Source: Candidatus Zhuqueibacterota bacterium (lineage in GTDB: Bacteria > Zhuqueibacterota > Zhuqueibacteria > Residuimicrobiales > JAFGEC01). From it: DNA of 33,457 nucleotides. Both the position numbers and the translations under genes were made by a program. The notes under the pieces are model-generated. The model was given only the letters and a program-made list of their open reading frames with translations. It made no database searches and was not told the origin of the DNA. Shown here in pieces: positions 2,804 through 28,206 of this stretch. The stretch covers positions 1 through 33,457 of the forward strand of contig JAFGEC010000517.1 in assembly GCA_016931775.1 (NCBI GenBank). The letters run 5' to 3'. Position 1 is the first letter of the stretch. Each line of letters opens with the position of its first letter.

Positions 2804-5800
2804 CTAGTTACCCGAATAGCATCCGCCGGTACCGATACCGGTTTCATCCGCGTGCAGTGTTCCCTGCCAGGACCAGCAAAAGACCAGCGCACAAACTTTT
2901 AATCCTGCGGTACCCTGTATGCAAAATTTCAGATCGGCCGGATTCAGGGGGATTGTCATCGAGGAGGTCAACTCGGCAAATAAACTCGCCGACAGCAGAC
3001 CCTCCAGCACCTCTCCGTGAATTTCCACGCCACCGTGACCCAACAAAGTTGTTGACGGATCGATGCCTGTTTTTGATATACTGGGCCCAAATACACCTAC
3101 GCCGGCCCAAACGGTAAAACCGCCTTCGATGATTTCCAACAATCTTACGGTGTAGGCAAACGATCCCGCGATGTATATACCCGTGACTTCACTGGTCCAT
3201 TCTGATTTTTGTTTTTCTATTATAGAACGAATACTCGGTCCCCTCGTGATTTGATCCAGGGCCCAGATATTTTTTATGGGCGCATTGTAGCCGGCAAAAA
3301 AGGCCCCTTCGCATTCAAGGGTAATGCCGAATTTGGCTTTTACCTTGGCATAACCCTGCAGGTAATTGCTGTCGGTACCAAAATAAAAGTTAAACCGTCC
3401 CCTGGCCTCCAGTTCGGCATATTGGGATTGATTGATTGCATAATTAGTGCCGCCGTATACCTGAAAAACACCGTTAATATCTCCTTCCAGAGAGCCTTCC
3501 GATTTATTAAGTACCAATTTAGTCGAGGCAAGACCTACCATGCCGGCACTATAAAGCGTCAGGCTGATTTGTCCGCGGTTGCGTAAAATAATTGTGGTAG
3601 GGGTGATGTCGATATTGGCCAGTGCTTGGCCCTGGAATTTCCACGATTTAATGGATGCCTGGCCTTCCAGTACGATTCGTTTGATGGCATCACCTTTGAT
3701 CTGGATCAACCCGCTGATCTGGTTGACGTGGGCGTAATCGGCACCGAGCACCTTGAGAACCTGGTTATCCATACTCACCTTGTCGGCACAGCAAAAATGG
3801 ATAAAGCTCGTGCCGCTGTTCAGATCGATGGTTTTGGGATTGAGGGTGCCGGCCTTAAATGCGGGCAGGAATTGAAAATCCACCAGCATGGGATTTTTTG
3901 CCTTGATCCCTTGGAATCCGTTTTGATCCTGAATGTCGTAATCGGCATAAAAATCCATGTCCGCCGTGCCGCCGCCCCATTTCTTTGTAAAATGTGTCTG
4001 ACTGTTTTTCAGATCGATAAAGACAAAACGGTTTTTCCATGGTTTTATATCGTGCCCGTTGCGGGCGTCGTTATAATCCAAAATGTCCATACGTTTAGCG
4101 CCGAAAAAGTCAAAATGAACGTCTCCATAAGCCTGCAGATATCCCAGTGTGTCGTTATCTACCGGTTTGCCGGGGACATATTCCGACAAAGCAGCTTTAT
4201 GTAAAGTGAATGGAAATCCGTCGAACTTTTGGCCGGCGGAATTGAAATCAAAAATAAATTTGCAAAGATCGCCGTCTGCGAGCATTTCCCCCCACACGAT
4301 CCGGAAGGGTTTGGTGAAATGGACGTCCTCGGTGATCCACGAGTTCATATAGATAATTTCCCCCGTATCCACCGACAGCACATTGCCGGTGCTGTCAGCC
4401 GTCATTTTCACCCCCCAGTATTTGAGGTTCTTGCTTTTAAAAAATACATCACCGCCGACCATTTCAGCTGTTGAGGTCAGGTTCAAATCTTTGTATTTGG
4501 CGGTAAAATCGCACGGGTATGGGATGGTCAAATGTCCGCCGATATATGAACATGCAACCGCATTGCGAACAAGCTGAATGTTGATCCATGCCAGCGAGTC
4601 GGGCTTGTGCTCGATCGTTGCTGTAAAGGTGCTGTCCGACTTGTAGCCGCTACGGGTGGTGACTCCCAGTTCCACATTCGCCAGCTTGCCCTCCTCCCGC
4701 GATAGCAATTGACCGCTCATGCCTTTGGTGCTGATGTTGAGCCAGCCTGACATTTGGTACTTTGCCATGGGCATGTGTAAAGGCAGCTCCATATCCGGCG
4801 TTTTTATTCTCAAGATATCTTTTTCATCGGGCTCGAATAATTTCATAGTGAGTCCCGGAAGCGAATCCAGAGCTGATTTAATTTTTAGAACCGGCAGCGA
4901 CGTATATTTTTTCATTTCAATGGTGTCCAGCGGGGCGACGGAATAGACACCGGCCATTGCTGGAAGGTACAAACGTGCGCTGTCGGTTTTAAATGTAAAA
5001 GCCCGCCAGCACAGGCTTTGGTTTTCTTCGAAATATGTTTTGGCTCTAAAATTTAAAAATGTATCGATTCGTGCATTTGTCAGGGGCACATCGATTTTAT
5101 TTCCCAATGAATCCGTTATACTTTCGGGCAACTCCATTTGACCGGAAAAAGTCCCGCTGACGATCCGGCTTTTTTCAATTTTTATCTCACCGATGTTCAG
5201 GTTCATGTTAAAACCGATAGGGATCAGTGTTTCGTATTGAACGGCAGAGGTTAGTTTAAGGTCGGCGTCAAATCCCCAACAAGCCTTTAAAACCGCGTTT
5301 TGAAGTTGATAATCTCCGCACGTCCAGCCGGTATTGCTGTTGTACGTCTTTCGCGGAACGGTTTGAGCGGGGGAGAAGAAAATTGTCTTGGTTTTTTGAT
5401 TGAAATCCAATTTAGCACCACCGGCTTTGAACAGGATACCGGTATTGCCGATAAACAGGGAATCGATTGTATATCCCCTAAGCTGTTTGGTGAACGATAA
5501 AAATTCATCGATTTCTGCTTTGATGGGTCCGATATAAAACGGCGAACAACCGGAAGGTGGTGAAAGATATTTTGTCGGCAGGCCAAGATCAAATTCTGCA
5601 ATCACAGAATCCGGATATAAATTCAATTTATACAGTTTAAATTCAAAGCCCTCATTTTCCAGACGTAACGGGGGATTAAACAGTTTGGTAATGCTGCCTT
5701 TGACAATTTTTTCTTTGCTGTCCGGCGGCCAGTTTGTTGTTTGCAGATTTTTAAAATCAACGGAAAAATTCGTTTGCGAGTAAATCTCAATGGGAATGCT

Positions 5801-6775
5801 AATGGTGTTGCTGAACGGATCGAATTGGGTGCTTGTTGTGTAGGTGCAGGGAGTGGTGAGCAGCTGTCCCTCGGCGGTTCCGTTTAAAAGATTGTTTGTA
5901 GTTGACGTAATCTCTTGTACAACAAGTTCAAAGTCACCCATAACCAGGGTATCGGGAGGAGTCGGTCCTCGCAGCTCCGGAATAACGGATGACGGCTGTT
6001 TATATTTAAACGACCAGATTTCACTTTTACCGTCATTTTCGCCGACGGGTTTGCCCTCCAGGTCCAGGGCCTGAATTTGCCATACGTATTCGCTCCCCTC
6101 TTCCAGTCTTAATCCTTCAAGGGGGTATTGAAGAGAGGATTCCCGATAATAGGGAATTTCAAAAGCGGCAATGTTATCAATGGCCTCAAAAACTGTTTGT
6201 CCTTCTTCGCGCCGGCAGATTTTGACGTAATAATAGACCTCAGCTTCCGGCGGCAACGGCGATGGTATGGTCCATTGAAACATCGGGTATTCTTCCTGTA
6301 TTGTTTCATCCTCAAAGGGTGTGACAAGGCGTGGCGCGCCGGGCATGGTTACATTAAAAAAGACACAGCCCGAACCAACTTCGTGGCCCACCTCCATGTC
6401 AACGACGGTTATGCAGATGTTATAGGCGCCTGCCGGAAAACGGCCGTGCCGTAAAATAGCGCTTTCAAACTCCGGGTTGAGCCAACGGTCGTGGATTTCA
6501 TGGATGTCCATGGGAGTGATCTGACGTCCGCCCGGAGGAATGATAATGGGATTACTGGCACCGCGAAACATATCGCCTTTTACCTCTTCAAAGACCTCGC
6601 CGAAAAGGTAAATCTCCCGTTCCCGTTCTTGATTATTCATTATGTCCACCCACCACATGTCTTCCAGATATAACTCATATCCGGCGGGTGTATGGATCAT
6701 AATGTTCCATTCTCCGGGTTGGGCATGAACCCACACCGTTGAGATTAAAATTATTATGGAAAAAAGAGATCGCAT
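2804..6775 (-). CDS. Large secreted protein with N-terminal TANFOR-like domain (1323 aa)
   Basis: Signal peptide MRSLFSIIILISTVWVHAQ; AGAGGAAG SD; N-terminal 'IIPPGG...GAYNICITVVDMEVGHEVGSGCVFFNVTMPGAPRLVTPFEDETIQEEYPMFQWTIP' resembles TANFOR layout; remainder looks like repetitive beta structure. Confidence 0.85.
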   Translation of the reverse strand: MRSLFSIIILISTVWVHAQPGEWNIMIHTPAGYELYLEDMWWVDIMNNQEREREIYLFGEVFEEVKGDMFRGASNPIIIPPGGRQITPMDIHEIHDRWLNPEFESAILRHGRFPAGAYNICITVVDMEVGHEVGSGCVFFNVTMPGAPRLVTPFEDETIQEEYPMFQWTIPSPLPPEAEVYYYVKICRREEGQTVFEAIDNIAAFEIPYYRESSLQYPLEGLRLEEGSEYVWQIQALDLEGKPVGENDGKSEIWSFKYKQPSSVIPELRGPTPPDTLVMGDFELVVQEITSTTNNLLNGTAEGQLLTTPCTYTTSTQFDPFSNTISIPIEIYSQTNFSVDFKNLQTTNWPPDSKEKIVKGSITKLFNPPLRLENEGFEFKLYKLNLYPDSVIAEFDLGLPTKYLSPPSGCSPFYIGPIKAEIDEFLSFTKQLRGYTIDSLFIGNTGILFKAGGAKLDFNQKTKTIFFSPAQTVPRKTYNSNTGWTCGDYQLQNAVLKACWGFDADLKLTSAVQYETLIPIGFNMNLNIGEIKIEKSRIVSGTFSGQMELPESITDSLGNKIDVPLTNARIDTFLNFRAKTYFEENQSLCWRAFTFKTDSARLYLPAMAGVYSVAPLDTIEMKKYTSLPVLKIKSALDSLPGLTMKLFEPDEKDILRIKTPDMELPLHMPMAKYQMSGWLNISTKGMSGQLLSREEGKLANVELGVTTRSGYKSDSTFTATIEHKPDSLAWINIQLVRNAVACSYIGGHLTIPYPCDFTAKYKDLNLTSTAEMVGGDVFFKSKNLKYWGVKMTADSTGNVLSVDTGEIIYMNSWITEDVHFTKPFRIVWGEMLADGDLCKFIFDFNSAGQKFDGFPFTLHKAALSEYVPGKPVDNDTLGYLQAYGDVHFDFFGAKRMDILDYNDARNGHDIKPWKNRFVFIDLKNSQTHFTKKWGGGTADMDFYADYDIQDQNGFQGIKAKNPMLVDFQFLPAFKAGTLNPKTIDLNSGTSFIHFCCADKVSMDNQVLKVLGADYAHVNQISGLIQIKGDAIKRIVLEGQASIKSWKFQGQALANIDITPTTIILRNRGQISLTLYSAGMVGLASTKLVLNKSEGSLEGDINGVFQVYGGTNYAINQSQYAELEARGRFNFYFGTDSNYLQGYAKVKAKFGITLECEGAFFAGYNAPIKNIWALDQITRGPSIRSIIEKQKSEWTSEVTGIYIAGSFAYTVRLLEIIEGGFTVWAGVGVFGPSISKTGIDPSTTLLGHGGVEIHGEVLEGLLSASLFAELTSSMTIPLNPADLKFCIQGTAGLKVCALVFCWSWQGTLHADETGIGTGGCYSGN

Positions 6776-9092: not shown

Positions 9093-9293
9093 ATGCTGAA
9101 ATTTTTACTTTGGCTGGTATTACTGGTTTTTTGTTGGCCGTTGGCTTTACTCGCAATTATTTTATATCCTGTTGTTTGGCTTCTATTGTTGCCTTTTCGT
9201 TTACTTGGTTTTGCCATAGATGGTATTTTAGAATTTATTAAAGCGATTTTTTTATTACCCGCCAGGATTCTGGGTGGCGGGCGCCGGGCATAA
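9093..9293 (+). CDS. Small hydrophobic membrane protein (66 aa)
   Basis: MLKFLLWLVLLVFCWPLALLAIILYPVVWLLLLPFRLLG...; AAAGGAA SD; directly downstream of a consensus promoter; TAATG overlap with next ORF. Confidence 0.75.
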   Translation: MLKFLLWLVLLVFCWPLALLAIILYPVVWLLLLPFRLLGFAIDGILEFIKAIFLLPARILGGGRRA

Positions 9294-10344
9294 TGACAAT
9301 AATGCGATACAGGTTGCTGTTTGGGTGCATTATTGTAATCTTTATATCGTGTGGACGAATCTGTTTATGCGGCGAATTGATAGACCTGGATAATGGCTGG
9401 CAGTACCGATATGGCGATTCCCCCGTTGATGAAGCGGGCGTTCCGCTATGGATAAAAAAAGATGTCGCCGTTCACTGGCGGTCTTTTTCACCCCCGTTTA
9501 ATCCACCCGAACGTAACAAGCGGAATTTTCTCTGGTTGAAAAAAAACCTTCCGGCATCAAAATTCAATCATCCCACACTTTATTTGACCAACGTGATGAC
9601 CGATTTTCAGGTTTATTCAAATGAGGAATCAATCTATTCTTTTGGATCCTTCAAGAGCAATAAAAGAGACCGTTCCAGCGTCATAAGCTGGCATTTAATT
9701 CCTCTCAAGCCCGAACCTGAGGGATATACCCTGTACTTTCGTATCTATTCCACCGATCAAGATTATATCGGAATACCGGTTATGGCGGATAACAAAGCGC
9801 TTTTCGGTGACCATGCGGACGTTTTAGGATTCGTCGTCAAGAACGGCTGGGATCGTTTTGTTTTGGGCTGTTTTTTTATGCTTGTGGGTATTTTTTCATT
9901 CGATGCTTTTATGCATCGTTTTGCCAAAAAACCTTATTATCTGTTGTCTTTTGGTATTTTTACTTTTTTTATTGGATTGGCTTTTGCGTTATCCAACGAT
10001 CTGATGCAGTTAATCTTTGACTGTTCACCCGTGCGATATTTTGGGTCATTATTGGGTGTGGTTTTATTCCCGGTTGGATTTTTTTCATTCTTTGAATATA
10101 TCGTTTTGAAACAACAAAAAAGAACTCTTCGAGTTATATGGCAGGTGCTGCTGGTTTACGGCTTGATGATTTGGATCCTGGATCTGGTTAATATCATACA
10201 TTATAATACGTATCTATTTGCTATAATATTATTGAAAAACACCGGGGTAAAATTCGTGTGACAAGCGAAGAAGGCAAGGGTGCGACCTTTAAAATTCAAC
10301 TGCCGGTGGAAATTGAAAAAACCATAGCTTTTATACAAAAGTAA
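9293..10344 (+). pseudogene. 7TMR-DISM-type sensor histidine kinase, internally deleted and frameshifted
   Basis: Frame 1 (9293-10261) encodes extracellular jelly-roll-like sensor plus 7-TM region; the other frame (about 10213-10344) encodes 'SICYNIIEKHRGKIRVTSEEGKGATFKIQLPVEIEKTIAFIQK*', the end of an HK HATPase domain. HisKA and most of HATPase are absent. Confidence 0.8.
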
Positions 10345-10358
10345 CGGGAAGTGAGATT

Positions 10359-11645
10359 ATGTTTTACAGAAGACAATTATTAAAATGCAGTATTTTTGTT
10401 CTTTTGCTTCCAGCTTTTTGTCCGGCTCAAAGTGCTGCAGTCGATTCAACATCAACAAGATTTCATTCCAAATATTGTGCCAAGCAGCCTTGGGAGAGAG
10501 TAGTATCCTTCCCCGGCATGGTCGCCTACTTACCGTTTCAGGCGGTATTTTATCTTTCAGAACGGTTTATCGCTTATTCCACATCGGGATATAAGGCGCA
10601 AAAAATACTGGATTTTTTAACCACCGATGACGGTAAAAGAGGTATCTTTCCCACCTATGCCGCCAGTACTGGAGCGGGCTATATGTTTTTTCAAAAAGAA
10701 ATATTTAAAATGCCCGAATCGCGTTTCACGTTTAAAACCACTTTCGGACTCAAAGGACGCTCTTTCGTTCAGGTGAATTTGGAAAAAATTCAGCTGCCGA
10801 AAAGATTTTTTATGGGTATGAGTGTTCAATACCATTTGATGCCCGATGAAAGTTATTTCGGAACGCCGGAAAAGGCCGGTATGGATTCCCGTTTTGAGGA
10901 TCGCAACATTTTTTCACAGGAACAAGCCAAAGCGCAAATTTCATTGGGAGGATACCTTCTCCCTGGAATGACACTTGATGCCCTGGGGAGTTTTGAAAAT
11001 ATCAATATTCACAGGGGCAGAGGTGATGATGATCCTGCAATCTGTGAAACTTTTAATGTTTCCAGTTTACCGGGTTTAACCACAAGAACAAAATTGGCAC
11101 GGTTTGAGTTTGAAAGTATACTTACCACTCATAAAACCAGAGCCTATCCTTCCAATGGACTGGATTTTATCCTGAGAGGCGGAATTGCCAATGAAGTTGG
11201 TGACTCACAATACGGATTTTATAATTATGCGGCGGATGTGAAACAAACAATTAACCTTTTCTACGGCCGGTGTTTAGCTTTACGAGTGGCGGGCGAGGTA
11301 ACCCGGCCTCTGGGTGCCAAAAAAATTCCTTTTTACTATCTCAGTGAGATGGGACGTTTTTCCACAATTCGAGGCCTGGTACGCGGGCGATACCGGGATC
11401 GTGATATGATCTATGGATCACTTGAATATATTTACCCGATCCGTATGTTGCGAGGTGATCGTATTAGTTCCATTCTATTCCTGGACGCCGGCCAGGTCGG
11501 CAACAACCTGATTTCTTCCATGGAATTCGAAAATTTTGTCTTTACCTATGGATTTGGCTTTCAATTTTCAAATGCAGATGGATTGATTGCAAGGCTGGAG
11601 TTGGGCTTTAGTCCCGATGGATATAAAATACATTTCAAAATATGA
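10359..11645 (+). CDS. Omp85/BamA-like surface antigen outer-membrane protein (428 aa)
   Basis: Signal peptide; C-terminal 'STIRGLVRGRYRDRDMIYGSLEYIYPI' matches the Omp85 barrel motif (RGxxxGRxRD...EYxxPI); ends in aromatic/charged strand. Confidence 0.82.
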   Translation: MFYRRQLLKCSIFVLLLPAFCPAQSAAVDSTSTRFHSKYCAKQPWERVVSFPGMVAYLPFQAVFYLSERFIAYSTSGYKAQKILDFLTTDDGKRGIFPTYAASTGAGYMFFQKEIFKMPESRFTFKTTFGLKGRSFVQVNLEKIQLPKRFFMGMSVQYHLMPDESYFGTPEKAGMDSRFEDRNIFSQEQAKAQISLGGYLLPGMTLDALGSFENINIHRGRGDDDPAICETFNVSSLPGLTTRTKLARFEFESILTTHKTRAYPSNGLDFILRGGIANEVGDSQYGFYNYAADVKQTINLFYGRCLALRVAGEVTRPLGAKKIPFYYLSEMGRFSTIRGLVRGRYRDRDMIYGSLEYIYPIRMLRGDRISSILFLDAGQVGNNLISSMEFENFVFTYGFGFQFSNADGLIARLELGFSPDGYKIHFKI

Positions 11646-13303
11646 TAAAGGAGTTACGTTTGGGAAAAAAGTTTTTGAAATTATTCGTATTTATAGGATT
11701 ATTTACCTGGATTAACTGTTCAGGCAGCCGCCGTTTTGTCGCCCCGTCTCCGGTTGTTGATGACCGTCAGCCCGTTCCCGAAAACGTGGCGGAAAAGGAT
11801 CCGAATCTCTATGCCTATGTGTTTAACCGGCAGATTTCCGAGCAGTGCCGGCAAAGCTTTGATCTATCCCGGCAGTTACGTTTTTTATTCGGCAGCCCAC
11901 GTCAGGCCATGAACCTGGACGCATTCGACGAGGTCGCAAATTCGAGCTGGTTTACGCGTCGGTTATTTTACCGGGAAATGAGTCTGGAAAAGTTTGTGCA
12001 GGGTCCGAATACCGTTACCGGGCCGGATACCAGTGGTGCCTGGAAAATCGTGCGTGCTAAAACCCAGGGCCTTACCCCCGGCTTTTCCATTAAAGATCCT
12101 AAAGGCGATTTATATCTGATTAAATTTGATCCCCCCGGACATAACGAACTGGCATCCGGTGCCGAAGTGGCGGTAACGAAAATTTTTTATGCTGCAGGAT
12201 ATAATGTGCCGCAAAATTTTGTCGTCTATTTTCACCCGGATCGTTTGGAATTGGCTGAAAATGTCGAATATATCGGGAAAAACGGCCAGGTACGGCCCAT
12301 GAATGAACAGGATCTGGCGGAAATTTTTACGCAAGTTGAATTTTTACCCGACGGCCGTTTAAGAGCACTTGCCAGTAAATATCTGCAGGGCAAACCTTTG
12401 GGCCCGTTCCTTTACAAAGGCACCCGGAAAGACGATCCGAATGATATATATCCCCATGAGCATCGACGTGAATTGCGAGGCTTAAGGGTGTTTACCGCAT
12501 GGCTGAATCATTTCGACGCCAAGGCGCATAACTCGCTGGATATGTTTGTTACCGAAAACGGTAAAAGTTATGTCAAGCACAGTCTTATCGATTTTGGTTC
12601 TACATTGGGCAATGCCTTTCCCAGTTATGGATTTGAAAATTATTTTGATCCGCACCAAATGTTGTTCAATACATTGACGTTGGGACTGCACGTCATGCCG
12701 TGGGAAAAACAAAAAGAACCCTATCCGTCCGCCGGATATTTCGAGTCGAATTCTTTCAAACCCCATGAGTACAAGGTCAATCTTCCCAATCCGGCTTTTG
12801 AGCTTATGACCATGCGTGATGCATACTGGGCCGCGAAAATTGTTATGTCCTTTAAGGATGAACACATCAGGAGCGCCATTGAACAGGGATGTTATACAAA
12901 TCCGGACGCCGCTGAATATCTCATTCAAACCTTGATTGAACGCCGGGATAAAATCGGCCGGTATTATTTTAGCCGGGTCAATCCATTGGACAAATTTATT
13001 GTAAAAGAAAAAACTGACGGCAGTTGTGAATTCTCGTTTGTAGATATGGCAGTCGTAACAGGATTGGAAAAATCCGAAAGCAGCCAATATCTCGTTGAAA
13101 TCATACAAGGTGATAAAATATTGATCGAAAAAAACGTTCTTGAAAGTCCTTCCGTGAAAATTCCTGCCTGGGAGGAAGGTCAGGTCCAGGTATGTTTGCG
13201 CACAAAACGGCAAACGGAAGGACGGTGGAGTCCGTGGGTAAAAGTATATGCAAGTAAGAACAAATCCGGATATAGAATCGATGGCATCATTCGGCAGGAT
13301 TAA
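11642..13303 (+). CDS. Putative lipoprotein with atypical (HipA/PI3K-like) kinase-like fold (553 aa)
   Basis: ATGA overlap with Omp85 gene; N-terminus FIGLFTWINC (atypical lipobox); 'GDLYLIKFD' (beta3 Lys), 'ELASGAEVAVTKIF' (alphaC Glu), 'NHFDAKAHNSL' (catalytic D..N), 'SLIDFGSTLGN' (DFG). Confidence 0.8.
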   Translation: MIKELRLGKKFLKLFVFIGLFTWINCSGSRRFVAPSPVVDDRQPVPENVAEKDPNLYAYVFNRQISEQCRQSFDLSRQLRFLFGSPRQAMNLDAFDEVANSSWFTRRLFYREMSLEKFVQGPNTVTGPDTSGAWKIVRAKTQGLTPGFSIKDPKGDLYLIKFDPPGHNELASGAEVAVTKIFYAAGYNVPQNFVVYFHPDRLELAENVEYIGKNGQVRPMNEQDLAEIFTQVEFLPDGRLRALASKYLQGKPLGPFLYKGTRKDDPNDIYPHEHRRELRGLRVFTAWLNHFDAKAHNSLDMFVTENGKSYVKHSLIDFGSTLGNAFPSYGFENYFDPHQMLFNTLTLGLHVMPWEKQKEPYPSAGYFESNSFKPHEYKVNLPNPAFELMTMRDAYWAAKIVMSFKDEHIRSAIEQGCYTNPDAAEYLIQTLIERRDKIGRYYFSRVNPLDKFIVKEKTDGSCEFSFVDMAVVTGLEKSESSQYLVEIIQGDKILIEKNVLESPSVKIPAWEEGQVQVCLRTKRQTEGRWSPWVKVYASKNKSGYRIDGIIRQD

Positions 13304-13384: not shown

Positions 13385-14500
13385 TCACCAAATATTGGCG
13401 ACTTTTTTGGCATGAGACGCTTTTTTTTCATTTGTTAACAATGATTGAACCCATTCTCTGTTCGACCACATCGCACAGATACCGTCTTTTTCATTCAATC
13501 GCTCGGGGTGATTACGAATGGTTTGTAACAATTTCGACTGCAGCGCATCTTTGAGCGAATGGTTGACAATGTCCGTATCGGAAAACGGTCCGAACGGACA
13601 GGGCTCTACCTGGCCTTTTGAATTAATATGGATAAATCCTCTTCCGGCGGCAAGACAGCCGCCGACTTCTTCTTCGTGGCTGGGTACGGCAATAAACAAG
13701 CTGGAGTACTTTTTCCGAAAATGGTCAAACATCGGCAAGATTTGTTTTCTCTGTTCCGTTTCGAGAACCCAATTCTCAGTGCCTTTTTGCACCGGCGTGT
13801 ATTCCAGGATAAGAAAAAATCTGCACCCGGTTTGAAATATCTCTTTAATGTACAAATCGCTCATCACGGTGTTGAAATTATGGCGTGTCAACGTAATCGA
13901 TGTACCGAAAAACAGATTTTCCTTTTTTAGACGTTTCATCTTTTCCAGCACGATATCGAAAGTCCCTTCGCCGCGTCTGTCATCCGTTTCCGATTTGCAC
14001 CCTTCGAGACTGAACAGGGTCATGACATTTCTGGTTTCTTTAAGTGTGTTAATTGTATTATCGTCGATGAGTAAACCGTTGGTAATAAACAGAAAAATAA
14101 TCTGGGGAAAGCTTTTAATAATTTTCAACATTTCCTTCCGCAGCAGCGGTTCTCCACCTGCGATGACAAAAAATGATACACCAAGCTCATCCGCCTCACT
14201 GACCACTTGCCACAATTTAGAATCATCAATCTCGTCGTTGGTCGAATTTTGTAATGCCTGAGCATAACACCCTTTGCAGGTCAAATTACAGCGATTTGTT
14301 ATACTGAAAATGATAATCGGCGGCACCTGAAGCCCCTCTTTTAACAAGATATTTCTTTTCCGGGCTGCCGTTTTTTGCCACCTTACCGTTTTAATAAAAT
14401 GTAATGCCTGCCGAGGATTGGTCAGGCTGACATATACTGCATCTTTAAAAAAAACACCCAGAGCGCGGTTCAGAACCTGTGAGTTGAATCCCTTTTGCAT
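13385..14500 (-). CDS. Radical SAM protein with SPASM/Twitch-like C-terminus (371 aa)
   Basis: CNLTCKGC (CX3CX2C), 'FFVIAGGEPLL', 'GQVEPCPFGPF', further C-terminal Cys. Confidence 0.9.
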   Translation of the reverse strand: MQKGFNSQVLNRALGVFFKDAVYVSLTNPRQALHFIKTVRWQKTAARKRNILLKEGLQVPPIIIFSITNRCNLTCKGCYAQALQNSTNDEIDDSKLWQVVSEADELGVSFFVIAGGEPLLRKEMLKIIKSFPQIIFLFITNGLLIDDNTINTLKETRNVMTLFSLEGCKSETDDRRGEGTFDIVLEKMKRLKKENLFFGTSITLTRHNFNTVMSDLYIKEIFQTGCRFFLILEYTPVQKGTENWVLETEQRKQILPMFDHFRKKYSSLFIAVPSHEEEVGGCLAAGRGFIHINSKGQVEPCPFGPFSDTDIVNHSLKDALQSKLLQTIRNHPERLNEKDGICAMWSNREWVQSLLTNEKKASHAKKVANIW

Positions 14501-16798: not shown

Positions 16799-19700
16799 TT
16801 ATTTCACAAAAGCCAGTTTTCTGACCTGGACAAAGTCACCGGCCTTCATGCGGCACAGGTAAAGCCCCGCCGCCACGGGCAGGCCTTTGTCATCCGTTGC
16901 ATTCCATTTTATATTGTAGACGCCGGGTTGATGATGCTTGTCGACCAGCGACCGAACCTGCCGCCCTGCTACGTCGTAGATGGTTAACTGAACATGACCG
17001 GCATTGGGCAGTTCATACTGGAATGTGGTTGTCGGATTGAATGGATTGGGATAATTTTGCTGCAGAGCATACTTTTCCGGGAGAGTTTTTTCCAAACGTT
17101 GTACATCCGAACTGCCGTCCACTCTGACGTGGATGGTACGGCAGTAAAGCGTCAGTTCCGTAGCAACATCACTGGTGATACGGCAGATATATTTGCCGCT
17201 GTCCGAAAATGCTATGGCGGTAAACGGCAAAACTGCGGCGTCCAGGCCTGGAATGTCTACGCCGTCGTGCACCCAGGTGTAATGGTTTGCGGATCCATGG
17301 GTTTCTGAGTATAGTTTGAGGGGAGCGCCGAGAACAACTGTGGTGTCCTGCGTAACGCCGATACTGTCCTGGGGTGAATACTCAAAATCGGGCACACCGA
17401 TATTTGGTTCAATGTCCTCAAAAGTAAACTGGTTGTCGTGTATGCGTAAAAAGGAAAGCGCGCTCAGAGCAGAGAGGTCGGGCAATTCATTGAACCGGTT
17501 GTGGTGCAGATTGAAAATCTCCAGTGCGTGCAGAGCCGTGATCTCGTCAGGAATTTCCCCATGAAAGTCATTCATCTCAATCCGCAGGTCTTCAAGATTG
17601 ACCAGATTTTCAATTTCCGGAGAAATACCGCCGATCAATTGATTATTGGCCAGAATCAAACTTCTTAATTCCGTAAGCTTGTAAATTTCGTCCGGAATGG
17701 GACCGCTGAACTCATTCGAATAAAGGTACAAATTCAGAAGATCTGTCAGGTCTGCCATTCGTACCGGAATGGGTCCTGAAAAGTGATTGTCACTCAGCCA
17801 TAGGTGGCGCAATTCCGACAAATCAAAAAGTTCATCGGGAAGCGGTCCGGAAAAATCATTTCCGAAAAGCCGTAAATTTTGTAGCTGAGTCAGATGTGCT
17901 ATTTCCGGAGGTATCTCACCGGTCAAGGAGTTGCTGGCCAGGTTGAGGACCTGGAGTTCCGGCATGTCGTAAATCGTGAGAGGTATGGTTCCTACCAAAT
18001 TATTGCGGCCAAAGCTGAGATGTTCCAACAGCCCGAGATCTCCGATTTCCGGCGGGATGGTTCCAATAAGCTCGCAGCCTTCGATAATCAGGTCGGTGCA
18101 ATTAGACAGTTGACCCAACTCCGGTGGAATCGGACCGGTGATTAAATTATTGGAGATATCAATATATATACTCGCCTGGCATTTTCCCAATTCGGGTGGG
18201 ATCGTACCTTCGATAGCGTTATCCCTCAGGTACAGTACTTCCATGGCCGTTAAATCACCGATTTCCGGCGGGAGAGTACCTGTCAGGTTATTTATGCCCA
18301 GACGGACCCCTTTAACCCTGCAGTTTTCTATTTCAATACCATGCCATGTATCGACGGGTCCGGTCAGCCAGTTGGTATGATCGGTCCAGGCCGGACCGTT
18401 GGTGCTGTGATATAAAGCCACCAGCGCCAGCGAATCGCTGACACAGGATGCGATATCGCCCAGGGCGATTTTATAATCTTCCACCTCACCGAATACGGCC
18501 AGTCCTGTGTAACCAATACCGGGATCATAGCTGATCCGAAAACGGCCGAAAGAGTAACCGTTAATGGTATATTCCGGAACATAAATCGCAATGGTGTCGG
18601 GTTCACCCATATTGTACATTTCTTTATCCACAATGCAGTGCTCGTCGGCATCGTCCCAATCACCGTCGCTGTTGAAATCGATCCAGGTGTTGACAAAGCA
18701 ATGATCATTGGGCCAGATTTTAATACTGGCGCTGTCACCGGGCAGAAGCGGCGTGAGGAATTCGATAAAATCTTCATCATCGATATTGTTTATGTCGTCA
18801 CCGGTGGCATCGGCATTGGGCTGGCCATCCGGTTCAATGTCCTGATCTCCTACTCCGATATGATAGTTGACAATGTGGCGGGCGCCGTCATTGATTGACA
18901 ATGTCGGATAGGGCGGATCGGGCGCGTCGCCCCAATCCAGCCAATCCATACCGAAACCAATGGGCAGGATATAATCCTCGACTTCTCCGTCGGGGATAAA
19001 TCCATCGTAGCTGATATCTCTTGCACTGCTGAGCCGGAACCGCGCAGCCGCATCGCCTATAACGGCATCAGTAGGAATTCTAATCGATCTCACGTTGGGC
19101 AGTTCGGGATGATCGGCTCTGGGAGCGACCTCCATAATGATGAGATGATCCTGGGGATCGTCCCAATCATTATCCTGATTATAGTCGATCCAGGCATTCA
19201 ACCAGCCGGAATTCGATGGGGTAATTCGCATTTGAAAAGGATAACCCGGAACCAATGGCGGTACAAATTCGATACCATCCTCATCATCCTTATTTGTTTT
19301 ATCATCAGCATCGGCGCCGGGTGAATTTATGCCGTCGCCCTCCCAATCGATGAATTCACCCAGGTACAGGTCGGAGACCAGATGACGCGCACCGTTGTTG
19401 GCCATAGTGGTTGGAAACGGAGCCGGCGCATCGCCAAAATCCAGCAGGAACGGCCGGATCTCAATCTCGTAATCCTCCACTTCGCCGGTTTCAACGACGT
19501 CATAGGGCGAATCGAAATCCTGTTGGCTGAACCGGAAACGTGCATATGTCGTTCCCTCTTTTGCTTCATCAGGGATTACAATTGAGAGCGAATTGACACC
19601 CGCAGATAACTGGTGGTTCAGCACCTGTTCACCGGGGTCATCCCAGTCCTGATCCTGGTTATAGTCGATCCATGCTTTGAGCATTCCGTTTACGGAAGCG

Positions 19701-21757
19701 GTTATTTCCATGGTCGCGGTTTGGCCGATGAACATATCGGTCTTGAATTCAACGCCGTCCTCATCGTCAACATCCTTTTTGTCATCCCCCATGGCATGCG
19801 GATCGGGCTGGCCGTCGTCCTCCGCGTCCACTGCGACGCCCAAAAAGACACCGTCTGCAATGAGATGATGGGCACCGCCATCGGCCAATAACGTGCCAAA
19901 GGGTGCGTCGCCGAAATCCATCAAACCACTGCGATCGGATATTTTTATCAAATAGTCTTCCGATTCGCCTTCACTGAATATACCCGAACCATCCCAGGGC
20001 AGCGGTATGGGATTTTTGGTTATGGTAAGCCTTATCCAAACATAACCGGGATAGGGACCGATGCGGAAATCCGGAGGATCGAGCACTGATAGATGACCGT
20101 TGGAAGCACCCGGTACATGAAAGTTTTTCAGTACATGCTCGGGAGCAAAATTTTGTTCATCACAGCGGCTGGAACCGCCCCAACTGCCGTCCTGGTTCCA
20201 GTCGATCAGCACATTGACATAAGCACCGTCGGGATTGTGGGTATCGAACCAGAGATTAATATTGGAATCGGTTCCCCAGTGGGCCGTTCCACAGGTATAA
20301 CCCAGGGTTTTGCCCTTAAACTCCTCACACAACTTTACGATTTTCAGGACGCCGTCTTCCTGGACGATCGTAAAGGCATCGGGTGTCCACAATCCGGCAT
20401 CCGCCTCGTAGCAGGATTCATCCTGGTCGTATTTATCTCCGAAAACCGGGCACAGGCCCTCGTTGCCGTCGACTTCAAAGTCGGCATGGTTGCCCAGAAA
20501 GCTGTTGTGGTTGCTGCCGTGCTGAACATATCCGGCCGGGCCGACGTTTTTACAGGTTGGGAAGTTGCCTATAACGCCGGTGGAGGGATAAGCGATGACC
20601 CCTTCCGGGGCGTCGCCGTATTCATACAAAGGAATAAAGGCGTTTACATGGATGTAATCGTCTTTTACGACAATATCCGAGCCGTTATCGCAGGTGATTT
20701 CCAGGCTGACATCATAATCCCCGGGATTGTTATAGGTGACCTGATGGGGACCGATACCCTGTGCGCTGGACGGCGTGCCGCCGGGAAATGACCATACCCA
20801 GCTGTTGGCATTGGTGGAATTATCGGTAAACAAAACCGGCAAGGGTGCATCGCCGCTGGTAGGCGTACCGGTAAAATCGGCCTCGCACGTGCAATCCAAT
20901 ACGGTGATATAGGAATTTTTGGTTTTTTTATCGCTGCCGTTTTCACATTGAATTTCCAGTGTTACGGGGTAAGTGCCCGGAGTATTGTAAATTACCGTGT
21001 GCGGCCCTTTGCCTGTGGCATTTGCGGGCGTTCCGCCCGGAAACTGCCACGCCCAGCTTGTCGCGTAAGGGGAATTATCGGTAAATTTGACTTCCAACGG
21101 CGCACAGCCGTTCCGGGGTTGGCCGGTAAAATCCGCTTCACAGGGGCATTCATCCACGTGAATCATATCGGTGACCGTTTTGGAGTCATTTCCATTCGGA
21201 CACACAATTTGCAGAGTGACGTCGTAATCACCCGGTTTGTTGTAGGAAATGGTATGCGGGCCCTTGCCCTGTGCGCTGCCCGGATACCCTCCCGGAAAGC
21301 TCCAACTCCAACTGACGGCGTTTACCGAGTTGTCGGTAAATTTCACATCCACGCCGGGACATCCGGTTGTGGGACTTGCGGTAAAATTAGCGGTGCAATC
21401 GCAGTTTTTAACCGTAATAAAATTGAGTTTGGTTTCGGTGTCGCCCCCCTGTTTGCAATTGATGACGAGTTTTGCATCCCAGTTGCCTACAGTATTGTAA
21501 GTAATTTTATGAGGTCCGGGGCCCGTGGCACTGGAGGGTGTACCGCCGGAGAATGTCCATATCCATTGAGCCGCTCCCGTGGAATTGTCCGTATACCAGA
21601 CATCCATACCGGGACATCCTATGGTCGGTTGTGCCACAAAGTCGGCATTACATTGGGCGTGGACGGGTGTATTCAGACCGAAAAAACCGGTAAAAAATAA
21701 TAAAAAGACGAAAAAATGCCCTCTGAAACATCGAAAGAAAATGTATTGATTAAACAT
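16799..21757 (-). CDS. Giant secreted protein: 4 PKD + about 4 GEVED + LRR + Ig-like + T9SS/FlgD-like C-terminal domain
   Basis: Four 'ADF..P..G..P..V.FTDNS...W.W.FPGG.P' repeats; 'DVDDEDGVEF/NKDDEDGIEF/NIDDEDFIEF...GEVEDY' repeats; LRRs 'LTGEIPPEIAHLTQLQNLRLFGNDFSG'; C-term 'LQQNYPNPFNPTTTFQYELP'. Start set to ATG 21757 because GGGAGGC SD precedes it (track uses 21778). Confidence 0.92.
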   Translation of the reverse strand: MFNQYIFFRCFRGHFFVFLLFFTGFFGLNTPVHAQCNADFVAQPTIGCPGMDVWYTDNSTGAAQWIWTFSGGTPSSATGPGPHKITYNTVGNWDAKLVINCKQGGDTETKLNFITVKNCDCTANFTASPTTGCPGVDVKFTDNSVNAVSWSWSFPGGYPGSAQGKGPHTISYNKPGDYDVTLQIVCPNGNDSKTVTDMIHVDECPCEADFTGQPRNGCAPLEVKFTDNSPYATSWAWQFPGGTPANATGKGPHTVIYNTPGTYPVTLEIQCENGSDKKTKNSYITVLDCTCEADFTGTPTSGDAPLPVLFTDNSTNANSWVWSFPGGTPSSAQGIGPHQVTYNNPGDYDVSLEITCDNGSDIVVKDDYIHVNAFIPLYEYGDAPEGVIAYPSTGVIGNFPTCKNVGPAGYVQHGSNHNSFLGNHADFEVDGNEGLCPVFGDKYDQDESCYEADAGLWTPDAFTIVQEDGVLKIVKLCEEFKGKTLGYTCGTAHWGTDSNINLWFDTHNPDGAYVNVLIDWNQDGSWGGSSRCDEQNFAPEHVLKNFHVPGASNGHLSVLDPPDFRIGPYPGYVWIRLTITKNPIPLPWDGSGIFSEGESEDYLIKISDRSGLMDFGDAPFGTLLADGGAHHLIADGVFLGVAVDAEDDGQPDPHAMGDDKKDVDDEDGVEFKTDMFIGQTATMEITASVNGMLKAWIDYNQDQDWDDPGEQVLNHQLSAGVNSLSIVIPDEAKEGTTYARFRFSQQDFDSPYDVVETGEVEDYEIEIRPFLLDFGDAPAPFPTTMANNGARHLVSDLYLGEFIDWEGDGINSPGADADDKTNKDDEDGIEFVPPLVPGYPFQMRITPSNSGWLNAWIDYNQDNDWDDPQDHLIIMEVAPRADHPELPNVRSIRIPTDAVIGDAAARFRLSSARDISYDGFIPDGEVEDYILPIGFGMDWLDWGDAPDPPYPTLSINDGARHIVNYHIGVGDQDIEPDGQPNADATGDDINNIDDEDFIEFLTPLLPGDSASIKIWPNDHCFVNTWIDFNSDGDWDDADEHCIVDKEMYNMGEPDTIAIYVPEYTINGYSFGRFRISYDPGIGYTGLAVFGEVEDYKIALGDIASCVSDSLALVALYHSTNGPAWTDHTNWLTGPVDTWHGIEIENCRVKGVRLGINNLTGTLPPEIGDLTAMEVLYLRDNAIEGTIPPELGKCQASIYIDISNNLITGPIPPELGQLSNCTDLIIEGCELIGTIPPEIGDLGLLEHLSFGRNNLVGTIPLTIYDMPELQVLNLASNSLTGEIPPEIAHLTQLQNLRLFGNDFSGPLPDELFDLSELRHLWLSDNHFSGPIPVRMADLTDLLNLYLYSNEFSGPIPDEIYKLTELRSLILANNQLIGGISPEIENLVNLEDLRIEMNDFHGEIPDEITALHALEIFNLHHNRFNELPDLSALSALSFLRIHDNQFTFEDIEPNIGVPDFEYSPQDSIGVTQDTTVVLGAPLKLYSETHGSANHYTWVHDGVDIPGLDAAVLPFTAIAFSDSGKYICRITSDVATELTLYCRTIHVRVDGSSDVQRLEKTLPEKYALQQNYPNPFNPTTTFQYELPNAGHVQLTIYDVAGRQVRSLVDKHHQPGVYNIKWNATDDKGLPVAAGLYLCRMKAGDFVQVRKLAFVK

Positions 21758-21988
21758 GTTGCCTCCCAAAAATGACAATATTTTTATGCAGATTTATAAT
21801 TCAGTGCCTTTGTACTTGTATATGTCGATAGAAAATATTAAAATTTTGAATAAAATGAGCAATTTTAATATGATTTGTCACTTGTCAGTCTGCAAGGGCA
21901 TGGAGATAATAAAAGTCCAATAGTGAGTCTTTTTCAACGTGTGTTAAAACAAAAATGGGAGCCGGGCTATTTGTATAAAAACTGATTA

Positions 21989-22692: not shown

Positions 22693-24975
22693 TTAACGCA
22701 CCAGCAACATTTTGCCGGTTTTTTGAAACTGGCCTGTTCGCACGGTATACAAATAGACCCCGGAAGCCAGCCTGTCCGGTGCAAAACGAATCCGGTGAAC
22801 GCCCTGGGGCATTTCGCCGGAAAACAGTTGTGTGACTTCCCTGCCATTCAGGTCGAATATTTTTATTTCAACATGATTTTTTTTCTGTATAGCATACTCA
22901 ATAATCGTGCTGCCGTTAAATGGATTGGGATAATTTTTGCATATCTGAAAAGATTCGGGTACGTCAAAGTTGCCAATGTGTGTCGGAAAATCAGTATATT
23001 CTACATTTAAATACGGCCGGTGGCCATCATCGTATTCGCTGGCTTTAAAACCGATACCCGTTTGGCTGTCGTTGATCACCAGTAATCCATTGTTCGGTAG
23101 CGTACCGCCGGCCCACTCCTGCACTAAATTTGTGATCGTCACCGGGGGATAGAACGTATGGTTCCAATTCTCCTCTCCCTGCTGATGGACAATTTGTGCA
23201 ACCGGTGCAGTTGTATCATAATCCCCGCCGGCTGCCGACCATTGTTCCGTTTCATTAGCGTTCACCCAGGTGACACTGCTTTCATCCCAGGATCGTGTTA
23301 CGCGAAAAATATCGAGATATTGATTGTCCTGATAGTTGGACTGGTTCCAGACATACAAAAACAGTTTTGCCGACAAAATACGCTTGCCGTTTAATTCCGG
23401 CGGGAGATTAAACTTGATGATAAACCGGTCGATATCGCTTACATAAGGTTCACTGCCAAATCTGGTATCGGGATCGCTTGCAAAGAGAAAACTATCATCC
23501 ACCTGGTCCTGGGTTTCCAACCGTATGGTGTTTTTTTCCTGTGATGGTTCCAGAGTCGTAGCCGAGGCGGTTGCCGACAGACCGGATTCATTGCCTACGG
23601 CGTCGAATGCTGAGACCTGGTACTGATATGTCGTGGATGGTGACAGACCGGTGTCGGTATAAGCGAGTGTAGATGCCGTCCCAATTTCCACACCGTCGCG
23701 GAACACCCGGTAGCCTGCCACAGCGGTATTGTCGGTGGCCGCGTTCCAGGTCAGATCGATTTGTGTGGATGACGATGCTGTGGCCGTCAATCCTGTGGGT
23801 GTAGAGGGTGGCTGGTCGTCAGTTGGGGTGGAGACCTCCACCGGTGAACTTGCCTCCGATTCCATCCCGCCGCCGTTAATGGCGCTGACCTGATAGCTGT
23901 AAGTTTGGCCGGGGACACACGTCATGTCGGAATAACTGGTTGACGACGTGGTGGCAATGGACGATCCGTTGCGGTATACACGGTAACGGGACACACCGGA
24001 TTCTTCATCTGTTGAAGGATCCCATGTCAGATCCACCTGTGTTTCGCTGATCACCGTCGCCAGCAGGTTTTGCGGAATGCTTGGTGGTGTGTCATCCGTT
24101 ACGGGACCGGCCCAGCCGGCCAAACGCGCCCAGAGCCACCAGATAGCATAAGCTTTCATATTGCCAACGACGTGTTCGGTATGGGCGGGATCACAGCGGT
24201 ACCAGTCCACACCCATTACATGGGCATTCTGCCACTCCTGACCCCAGTTACCGCCGTCGTAATAACACTCATCGGTAACATGCTGATCGCCAAAATAATT
24301 GCCGTCGGGATCGTAACATTCAATGTCGTAAAAATCGAACAAAACCTTATCATTGGTTTCGCAAAAATTGCGGATGGTTTGATTGTTTTGATGCAGGTCT
24401 CCCTCCAAGCCTGAACCGTCCGCGTGGCCTGTCATATATACAAATGTTATACCGGGATAATCCAGCTCTAACTGGTTCATATCATTCAGGTACTGGTTAT
24501 ATACGTCGGATTGACTGTACCCGGACAACTGCCCGCACCACGCCCACATAATCACATTATAAGCCGGATGAATGCTGCCGCGTCCCTGGGCGTTCACTTC
24601 GCCCAAAAAGTCCCGCGTCTCGTTCACCCAGCTGGGATAATAGCCGGCGTCGAGTTCCAGGTCACCCGCATCATATCCTGAACCTGAAAAAAGATGCAGT
24701 GCGCCGCCACTGCCGGTATTGTTAAATTGGAATAGATTGTGGGGATATCCTTTTGAATTCATAAAATCAACCAGTCCCGACATACCGCTCGGGATCTGGC
24801 TGCCGTGGGAGGTATAGCCGTAACCGATATGCAACTGTTCCTTGGCCTGTTCGATAGCGGCCACGGGAATTTGATTAATGTCGATACACGTGTGGTCCGC
24901 GATGATGGGCTGGGATAAAACACTTGTCAATGGAAAGAGTAAAATAAAAGCGTAAAGAACAAGAGTGTTTTTCAT
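22693..24975 (-). CDS. Secreted SGNH-like + 2x FN3 + DNRLRE-like + T9SS/FlgD-like C-terminal domain protein (760 aa)
   Basis: AGGAGG SD; signal peptide; N-domain 'IGYGYTSHGSQIPSGM...MTGHADGSG'; FN3 'PPSTPTGLTATASSSTQIDLTWNAATDN'; DNRLRE-like 'DDSFLFASDPDTRFGSEPYV...RFIIKFNLPPELNGKRILSAKLFLYVWN'; C-term 'ICKNYPNPFNGSTIIEYAI'. Confidence 0.88.
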   Translation of the reverse strand: MKNTLVLYAFILLFPLTSVLSQPIIADHTCIDINQIPVAAIEQAKEQLHIGYGYTSHGSQIPSGMSGLVDFMNSKGYPHNLFQFNNTGSGGALHLFSGSGYDAGDLELDAGYYPSWVNETRDFLGEVNAQGRGSIHPAYNVIMWAWCGQLSGYSQSDVYNQYLNDMNQLELDYPGITFVYMTGHADGSGLEGDLHQNNQTIRNFCETNDKVLFDFYDIECYDPDGNYFGDQHVTDECYYDGGNWGQEWQNAHVMGVDWYRCDPAHTEHVVGNMKAYAIWWLWARLAGWAGPVTDDTPPSIPQNLLATVISETQVDLTWDPSTDEESGVSRYRVYRNGSSIATTSSTSYSDMTCVPGQTYSYQVSAINGGGMESEASSPVEVSTPTDDQPPSTPTGLTATASSSTQIDLTWNAATDNTAVAGYRVFRDGVEIGTASTLAYTDTGLSPSTTYQYQVSAFDAVGNESGLSATASATTLEPSQEKNTIRLETQDQVDDSFLFASDPDTRFGSEPYVSDIDRFIIKFNLPPELNGKRILSAKLFLYVWNQSNYQDNQYLDIFRVTRSWDESSVTWVNANETEQWSAAGGDYDTTAPVAQIVHQQGEENWNHTFYPPVTITNLVQEWAGGTLPNNGLLVINDSQTGIGFKASEYDDGHRPYLNVEYTDFPTHIGNFDVPESFQICKNYPNPFNGSTIIEYAIQKKNHVEIKIFDLNGREVTQLFSGEMPQGVHRIRFAPDRLASGVYLYTVRTGQFQKTGKMLLVR

Positions 24976-25915: not shown

Positions 25916-28108
25916 TTAAACACTATGCCTATATTGAATTTCCAACAATTCTTCCACATTTCTGATAAAGTCAGCCGATGTCTCCCTGATCTGCTTGATA
26001 AAATCATTGTCTTCTACAGATCCCAGTGTCGCCGTCATTTCATCCCTGTTGCGGAAAGTGACCTGTCTGAAGGGGTTGTCCTCATCCTTTTTCCGAGTCG
26101 AATAAACCTGATCGCAGATAAATTGCTGTATTTTTGCCGCTTTTTTTAAAGCCTGAATCCATTGCTGTTTGGTAATATATTCTACCTCGAATAAATCGCA
26201 CAAGGTCGCATATGCATGCTGCTGTTTATCCAGCGGATACTTTTTCCAGAAATCGTCATATTTTTTATGGATTTCCTGCCACGTATTCACCTTTCCACTG
26301 CCGATATCCGAACGCAGTTTGTCCACATCATTTTGACGCACGATTTGCCCGCCGATATTTTCCCAGTGGCGTTCCCTGCCGCTTTTAAATACCTGTATAA
26401 ATTCATCCAGATTTTTGATCCTATTTATCCGTAAAAAGTCAGCTATATTTTTAACGGCATAATAAAAAAGCATGTCGCCATACGCATGATAGGCTTTTTG
26501 GGCTTTGAGAATAACCACCTTTCGGGCTGATTTTTCCATATTTTGGCCGTAAATTTCCGGTATGGCATTCTCTGTATTTAACATCCGGCGGCCGGTTTGA
26601 GCCATTTGATCCAGGGATTCTGTTTGCGCTCCACCCGCCTGTGCGGTCCACAATTCCAGTAACCGGCGGGCATGGAATATTTCTTCAACCGTATCCGGCG
26701 CCAGGAAATCAAATTCGATATGCTGGGCTTTGTTGATTCGTTTGTCACGGTTGTTAAATTTCCAGGTGTTTCTTGCCAGGGCGTACATGTTGTACATCCA
26801 CCAGTAAGCGGGAAGCACCTCGAGTCGGTCCTTGGCTGTATTATTATTCAGTAACGCAAAAGGGAACGGTATGTCCAGCTCCGCCGGGTAGTCCGCTTTG
26901 GCAAGCAATACAAAAGAGGCGAACCGGCTGGAGTGTTTAAGGCTGGTACACAGACCCGGCCAGAATCCCCTTCCTGCTGAAATTTCATTGTCATGAGCCC
27001 GGCTGTTATGGTTCGATCCGATGGTGGCACCGGCGGCTATGTTGCTTTGTCCCTTGACCACCGCAGCGATTAAAAATGAATTGTTGTGGTGCTGTTCGTG
27101 GGCGGGGAAAATTAAATTGTTCAAAACCTCGCAGCACGAAATGGTCGAATTGTCGCCGAGGAACGAGTGGATGAGACGGGCGCCGTATTTCAAACTGGAA
27201 TTTTCACCCAGGATAAACCTGACCGCCTTGCAGCCGTAAAATACGGAACAGCCATAACCGATAATTCCGTTCACCAGCTCGACGCCCTCACCGATTTGTG
27301 TGGGTTCCTGTGGTGATGAATGAATCGTCAGATTTTTTAATTTATTGGCGCCTTTGATATAGCAAAATGGGCCCATATTTACATCTTTGAGAATACGGGA
27401 GTTTTTTAAAACACACTGTTCGCCGATGAATCCGTAATAACCTCTGCGGTCGTCGAATTGTTTTTGGGTGATCTCTATCAGTTTTTCCTGTAGGGCCGTG
27501 TCGTCTCTGTATTTGGACCAAATCCAAGCATCGGCCGGAAGCATGCCGTCGAACGGCAACACGCGCCTGCCGCCCGCTTCGTTCATCAGGTCGAGCCACA
27601 CTCGTACCGTTTCCGGTTCACCCTGCTTGATGATACCGTTACCGAATTTGGCGTAATTTGTGGTGTGCATTTCATCGATATTGAATAAAATACAGCGGTC
27701 GCCGATGATGTAATGGGCCAGATAGCTGACATTGTGAATGGCGACGTTATCACCGATGTCACATGAAATTACCTTGCTGTTGGTGATCCCCACAGGCAGT
27801 TGCAGGTCGTGATGCTGCAGGATGGAATTTTGAACACTGCCGATGCGCACCAGGCCGAAAAAATTCGCATGAAAAATCCGGTCCGGATCGAATTTTTCGG
27901 TGACCAGTATTTCGCTCCAATTTTCCGCCGAATTGTTGTTTTTCCTCAATCGTTCCACTTCATCGTCGCGCAGATGCCGCCAGTATCCTTCCGGCCGGGG
28001 ATTTTGTTCATTGCGCAGATAGTGCTCGTCCTTGTTTTTGGGTAAATATTGTTCCGGGATAAAATTTTTACCCAGATTGCTGCCGGGCAGCAGGTTTACG
28101 TTGTACAT
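25916..28108 (-). CDS. DUF4954-like protein with left-handed beta-helix (hexapeptide) repeats
   Basis: Hexapeptide-like repeats ('IGDNVAIHNVSYLAHYIIGDRCILFNIDEMHTTNYAKFG', 'AGATIGSNHNSRAHDNEISAGRGFWPGL'); start at ATG 28108 supported by AGGAG SD. Confidence 0.8.
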   Translation of the reverse strand: MYNVNLLPGSNLGKNFIPEQYLPKNKDEHYLRNEQNPRPEGYWRHLRDDEVERLRKNNNSAENWSEILVTEKFDPDRIFHANFFGLVRIGSVQNSILQHHDLQLPVGITNSKVISCDIGDNVAIHNVSYLAHYIIGDRCILFNIDEMHTTNYAKFGNGIIKQGEPETVRVWLDLMNEAGGRRVLPFDGMLPADAWIWSKYRDDTALQEKLIEITQKQFDDRRGYYGFIGEQCVLKNSRILKDVNMGPFCYIKGANKLKNLTIHSSPQEPTQIGEGVELVNGIIGYGCSVFYGCKAVRFILGENSSLKYGARLIHSFLGDNSTISCCEVLNNLIFPAHEQHHNNSFLIAAVVKGQSNIAAGATIGSNHNSRAHDNEISAGRGFWPGLCTSLKHSSRFASFVLLAKADYPAELDIPFPFALLNNNTAKDRLEVLPAYWWMYNMYALARNTWKFNNRDKRINKAQHIEFDFLAPDTVEEIFHARRLLELWTAQAGGAQTESLDQMAQTGRRMLNTENAIPEIYGQNMEKSARKVVILKAQKAYHAYGDMLFYYAVKNIADFLRINRIKNLDEFIQVFKSGRERHWENIGGQIVRQNDVDKLRSDIGSGKVNTWQEIHKKYDDFWKKYPLDKQQHAYATLCDLFEVEYITKQQWIQALKKAAKIQQFICDQVYSTRKKDEDNPFRQVTFRNRDEMTATLGSVEDNDFIKQIRETSADFIRNVEELLEIQYRHSV

Positions 28109-28206
28109 TTTTTTCTCCTGGAATTGTGTCAAATAAACATAAAGACATTTATGGAAAAATACAATGTAAAATCTTTTTCGAAAATATCTGTGTTAAAAGT
28201 TGTGTT

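Follow-up and report, generated by a model that had tools for sequence, protein, structure and literature searches.

Kinases of the HipA-like group (PF20613, HipA_2; PF07804, HipA_C) provide the closest profile for the second of two adjoining genes described here, which encode an Omp85-type outer-membrane barrel and a lipoprotein. The lipoprotein differs from these kinases in being exported and in carrying an extra N-terminal region and a fibronectin-III (FNIII)-like C-terminal domain. Nor is it a toxin of the cytoplasm; its family lies below the Pfam cut-offs, and a HipB partner was not seen. The Fam20-type secretory-pathway kinases of animals (PMC7948968) offer a second comparison, the likeness being that of an atypical kinase placed outside the cytosol and dependent on ATP moved there. 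However, membership of the Fam20 type was not found by sequence, and the present family is bacterial, anchored in the outer membrane and linked to a barrel.

The barrel resembles the 'noNterm' class of the Omp85/TpsB superfamily (Heinz and Lithgow 2014, PMC4104836), which likewise comprises Omp85 barrels devoid of POTRA or other N-terminal domains; the RG motif is found in the barrels described here. The passages of that paper that deal with the class make no mention of pairing with a lipoprotein kinase, which looks obligate in our case. Major et al. 2017 (PMC5381601) described, in free-living bacteria, the same families of ATP/ADP translocases (NTT), NTT-HEAT and cNBD proteins (PF03219, PF13646, PF00027) that lie near many relatives of the pair, and in the same order, with NTT-HEAT followed by cNBD. 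They gave no function for the fusions, and what is added here is their connection with an envelope kinase. Neither the combination of barrel, kinase and NTT nor anything relevant joining Omp85 and HipA was found in the literature searched, a scope that left most subscription journals outside. On this basis the system, rather than its folds, is taken as new, each protein family having known relatives.

The barrel and lipoprotein genes

The window, i.e., the whole stretch of 33,457 nucleotides analysed, comes from a Candidatus Zhuqueibacterota bacterium (contig JAFGEC010000517.1). Its barrel gene (10359-11645, + strand) encodes a 428-residue protein of the Omp85 superfamily, of the 'noNterm' type, with the signal peptide MFYRRQLLKCSIFVLLLPAFCPAQ. 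The Pfam Omp85 family was matched only over residues 241-408 (E 3.3e-9; 37.1 bits, the cut-off being 24), and no POTRA domain was found in the Pfam search. The L6 motif, of the (V/I/L)RG(F/Y) type, is present as IRGL at residue 337; among paired barrels, its R and its G were each retained in 34 of 35. A sequence-only reading had called this gene 'Omp85/BamA-like'. The Omp85 part of the name agrees with the Pfam score; from the BamA equivalog TIGR03303 the product is far removed, with 23.2 bits against 297 and no POTRA match. A third barrel of the same type in the window's genome (G000:C278) was without a kinase by genome-wide search, so the barrel type can occur alone.

The stop of the barrel gene overlaps the start of the lipoprotein ORF in the tetranucleotide ATGA (11642-11645), as had been noted from the sequence. 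This ORF (11642-13303, + strand) is 553 residues long. Since AAAGGAG, resembling a ribosome-binding site (11647-11653, + strand), lies between the two genes and 6 nt ahead of a TTG codon at 11660, translation may begin at the latter, which may be the true start. The product would then have a typical lipoprotein signal of 19 residues, and the gap between barrel and lipoprotein genes would be 14 nt. The hydrophobic N-terminal stretch ends in Cys26 (11717-11719, + strand), the lipobox cysteine, which is followed by Ser and kept in 36 of the 38 relatives that cover the position; the residue at −1 is Asn, which is unusual. There is no Asp at +2, a feature compatible with an outer-membrane lipoprotein. 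The earlier description of the second product as exported and lipoprotein-like held good, its signal ending in a conserved Cys. A match between the kinase profile and that of the lipoprotein phosphatase described below was confined to the N-terminal signal region and was discarded.

At the other end of the protein, residues 450-553 (12989-13300, + strand) constitute an FNIII-like beta domain with pLDDT values of about 75-87 over most of its length; in Foldseek it was matched best by the FNIII domains found in cytokine receptors (E 1.4e-3, probability 1.00). The product of 11642-13303 matched no family in Pfam or NCBIfam, so members of this lipoprotein-kinase family are probably annotated as hypothetical at present.

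Relatives of the lipoprotein were found in 14 of 60 genomes, in 16 of 82 and in 25 of 388, and in the last set nine of the 25 lie outside the phylum; none were found in viral contigs. Of 41 kinase genes whose flanks could be read, about 39 adjoin a barrel (exceptions, L026 and L139), usually with gaps of −4 to a few bases and with several 4-nt overlaps. In L138 the order is reversed and the adjacency kept. When the distances among 35 barrels were compared with those among their kinases, a correlation of r=0.90 was obtained, a value that none of 5000 permutations swapping partners within genomes reached (mean 0.36, maximum 0.80). The pairs duplicate as units, and the window's genome has a second one on another contig (L027; G000:C64). 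The adjacency of barrel and kinase is far beyond chance. A functional pairing, which had been offered as an inference together with a search for conserved neighbours in other genomes, is thus backed by tight adjacency across phyla and by co-inheritance.

Upstream of the pair, at 9293-10344 (+ strand), lies a 7TMR-DISM-like sensor half (9293-10261; weak match, E 0.25) followed, in another frame, by the C-terminal end of a histidine kinase that contains NIIEKHRGKIRVTSEEGKGATFKIQLP. This is probably a broken histidine-kinase gene, internally deleted, frameshifted or misassembled. It fills the place taken in several other loci by intact histidine kinases, which were seen upstream of the pair in L027, L045, L047 and L132 and, at a distance of a few genes, in L134.

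Elsewhere in the window, the gene of a Radical SAM/SPASM-like protein (13385-14500, − strand) converges on that of the kinase. Por_Secre_tail sorting domains occur in large secreted proteins (16799-21778, 22693-24975 and 31427-32101; PKD, GEVED, LRR, fn3 and CBM96 domains), which point to a type IX-like secretion system. A protein with DUF4954 and DUF6819 is encoded at 25916-28132, and the 1323-residue product of 2804-6775 had no Pfam match. A defence system was not indicated, PADLOC having found nothing.

Kinase homology and active-site residues

The kinase core (residues 141-326; 12062-12619, + strand) was delimited from the hhalign alignment to HipA_2 members. When the profile of the family core was aligned with 20 PF20613 members taken from genomes, a probability of 96%, an E value of 3.7e-9 and a score of 66.5 were obtained. 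In the controls, none of 100 block shuffles scored above 33.1, and scores of 12-28 were given by HipA_C and five unrelated profiles. The alignment spans about 150 columns, with K161, E175, D292, N297 and D317 in register. Two earlier hhalign runs with seven HipA_2 sequences each had given 33 against 29-31 for shuffles and were discounted as proof, the run with 20 members being the decisive one; the alignment to HipA_C in those runs was restricted to the N-lobe. Weak Pfam matches to HipA_C and HipA_2 were seen over the N-lobe in the relatives encoded at L132 and L138, and an earlier search gave a weak HipA_2 match in one relative. The comparison with HipA-type folds that the first reading had proposed hence gave a match at the level of profiles.

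The curated cut-off of PF20613 was not reached, the window protein having no match and the best relatives 11-12 bits against 27. In 28 and 10 relatives, at E values up to 1 or 10, no Pfam match was found to CotH, Fam20C or PI3-PI4 kinases, and a PDB search with the family profile as query gave no match of any kind. With a two-sequence input (the window protein and that of L026), AlphaFold returned a pLDDT of 43.8 for the full length and 37.6 for the core; the C-terminal beta domain alone was usable. For the window lipoprotein, a kinase fold of the HipA-like superfamily is predicted from the sequence profiles.

The conservation of individual residues was counted in 41 relatives from several phyla. 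K161, the putative beta3 lysine of LYLIKFD (12122-12124, + strand), was kept in 40. D292, the putative catalytic aspartate of HFDAKAHN (12515-12517, + strand), N297, a putative metal-binding asparagine (12530-12532, + strand), and D317, the putative DFG-type metal-binding aspartate of IDFG (12590-12592, + strand), were kept in 39 each. E175, the putative alphaC glutamate of ASGAEV (12164-12166, + strand), was present in 29, being otherwise Ser, Ala, Gly, Asp or Tyr. Of the ordered motif set first read from the window, and of the expectation that homologues would share it, K, D, N and D have proved to be constants of the family, but the Glu, missing in 12 of the 41, is specific to a subfamily.

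It had also been suggested that the protein may be a pseudokinase. For the family this is disfavoured by the catalytic residues, which about 39 of the 41 relatives retain, and only the member in L133 (8630-10588) resembles one. Here the Lys, the catalytic Asp, the Asn and the DFG-type Asp have all been lost and the barrel retained; it does look like a natural pseudokinase, and the joint absence of the four residues is what a single active site built from them would predict. Such a member lends something to the view that in vivo the kinase domain has no activity or serves only as a nucleotide-binding switch, the lipoprotein having a structural part, comparable to that of the Bam lipoproteins, in a specialised pore for barrel assembly or translocation. 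The close association of the lipoprotein with an Omp85 barrel, inherited together with it, and the missing alphaC Glu would also suit a structural role. We consider it improbable, because the catalytic residues are otherwise so well kept and because it leaves the co-occurrence with NTTs, described below, unexplained.

A different target would be a glycan or a lipid, phosphorylated in the envelope as Fam20B does a sugar, with ATP or another donor. Folds of the HipA, PI4K and Fam20 types include lipid and sugar kinases; moreover, an LptD gene comes after the full operon of L132, and in L028, which has two pairs, a gene of the AsmA/YhdP type separates them. These neighbours are not conserved, and the closest profile, HipA-like, is that of a protein-kinase group, so that we regard a non-protein target as very unlikely.

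Nucleotide translocase and phosphatase genes at related loci

NTT genes, whose products are related to the ATP/ADP carriers known from chloroplasts and intracellular parasites, were found near the barrel-kinase pair in 17 loci. In 14 of these, namely L027, L029, L030, L031, L033, L036, L038, L039, L040, L047, L107, L109, L132 and L138, the gene is a short NTT (PF03219, about 445 residues), often accompanied by an NTT-HEAT gene and a cNMP-binding gene; L034 has a divergent NTT, and L026 and L134 have NTT-HEAT alone. The linked NTTs exceed the PF03219 cut-off and match a solved ADP,ATP carrier (9j3n, E 6.4e-29). Directly downstream of the pair in L026, L030, L031, L047 and L132 lies a lipoprotein metallophosphoesterase with the usual GD, GNHE, HH and GHxH motifs; among proteins of solved structure, purple acid phosphatases are closest to it. 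In L030, L031 and L107 there are also genes for a Na+/Pi cotransporter and PhoU. The gene order in L132, a one-contig genome from outside the phylum, is barrel-kinase-phosphatase-NTT-NTT.

A type-I NTT subfamily was defined by alignment (A7, E < 1e-180). It was found in 16 of the 388 genomes, every one of which also encodes the kinase (Fisher 2e-22, a P value that overstates independence because the linked genomes are related; that the pattern recurs in several phyla is independent of it). Of the 25 kinase genomes, 24 carry an NTT of some kind, as do 36 of the 363 others. Within the phylum, nine of the ten type-I copies adjoin a kinase pair and the tenth adjoins a POTRA-type Omp85 gene. In G287, G317 and G335 the NTT and the kinase are on different contigs, with a metallophosphoesterase near the NTT.

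Some genes of these families were seen in other settings. NTT-HEAT genes occur alone, away from any kinase, at L099-L104 and L110-L115, so the role of NTT-HEAT is wider than that of the type-I short NTT. A close relative of the lipoprotein phosphatase is encoded in L128 (7676-8944) of a genome, G054, in which the kinase was not found. A longer second Omp85-type gene lies directly upstream of the pair or beside a type-I NTT in L036 (6449-8029), L038 (4599-6296), L040 (44-1630) and L129 (8696-10267); POTRA was confirmed in that of L036.

At the window pair itself, NTT, phosphatase and phosphate genes are not adjacent. In the window's genome the NTT accompanies the second pair alone, and a search of this genome, whose assembly is 81% complete, gave no close relative of the lipoprotein phosphatase in question. 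The operon picture is therefore carried over from the relatives and from the second pair. The objection, raised in the sequence-only reading, that ATP is not normally available outside the cytoplasm has a candidate answer in the linked and co-occurring ATP/ADP translocases, one that is absent from the window.

The gene neighbourhood of the relatives also fits the main rival explanation, the scavenging of nucleotides or organophosphates. Here the barrel would admit external nucleotides or phosphate esters, the kinase-like site of the lipoprotein would bind or process them, the phosphoesterase would free phosphate, and the NTT, the Na/Pi transporter and PhoU would import nucleotides and Pi. The import of ATP by known parasite NTTs (PMC5381601) speaks for scavenging, as does the nearness of the phosphoesterase to purple acid phosphatases among solved structures. 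The main argument against it is that it has no need for the conserved catalytic Asp, Asn and DFG-type Asp of the kinase domain. Moreover, Omp85 barrels normally handle proteins and are not small-molecule pores, and the phosphatase is absent from many pairs, that of the window included. Scavenging is, on these grounds, unlikely.

A possible route to phosphorylation in the cell envelope

Compared with these alternatives, we prefer an envelope kinase with a dedicated supply of ATP, reversed by its own phosphatase, a reading that we regard as evenly poised between right and wrong. The second gene would encode a HipA-like lipoprotein kinase that is anchored in the outer membrane, works in the cell envelope and is held at the Omp85-type barrel encoded with it in one operon. 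The sequences themselves show the pair and its conservation, the active-site residues, the homology to HipA-like kinases, the lipobox, and the linkage and co-occurrence with the type-I NTT; that the kinase is active and faces the periplasm is inferred. ATP would cross the inner membrane via the dedicated NTT, presumably in the direction of export. At the fuller loci, the lipoprotein metallophosphoesterase would undo the phosphorylation, and the Na+/Pi cotransporter with PhoU would recover the phosphate. As substrate, the barrel or some protein or glycan that passes through its hands would be most likely.

The strict co-occurrence of the kinase with the type-I NTT suggests that some bacteria feed ATP into the envelope for phosphorylation there. 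Several phyla may accordingly share a kit for ATP-dependent phosphorylation in the envelope, made up of lipoprotein kinase, Omp85 pore, ATP/ADP translocase, lipoprotein phosphatase and phosphate recovery, although we hold this broader statement to be somewhat doubtful. The periplasm is usually assumed to be without ATP, and hence without kinases that use it. An outer-membrane lipoprotein kinase, together with a private NTT subfamily found with it in 16 of 16 genomes, would make that assumption directly testable. A role is also proposed for NTTs in free-living bacteria, a question left open by Major et al. 2017 (PMC5381601); if the kit exists as described, it would be the first function for a part of the NTT and NTT-HEAT proteins of these bacteria.
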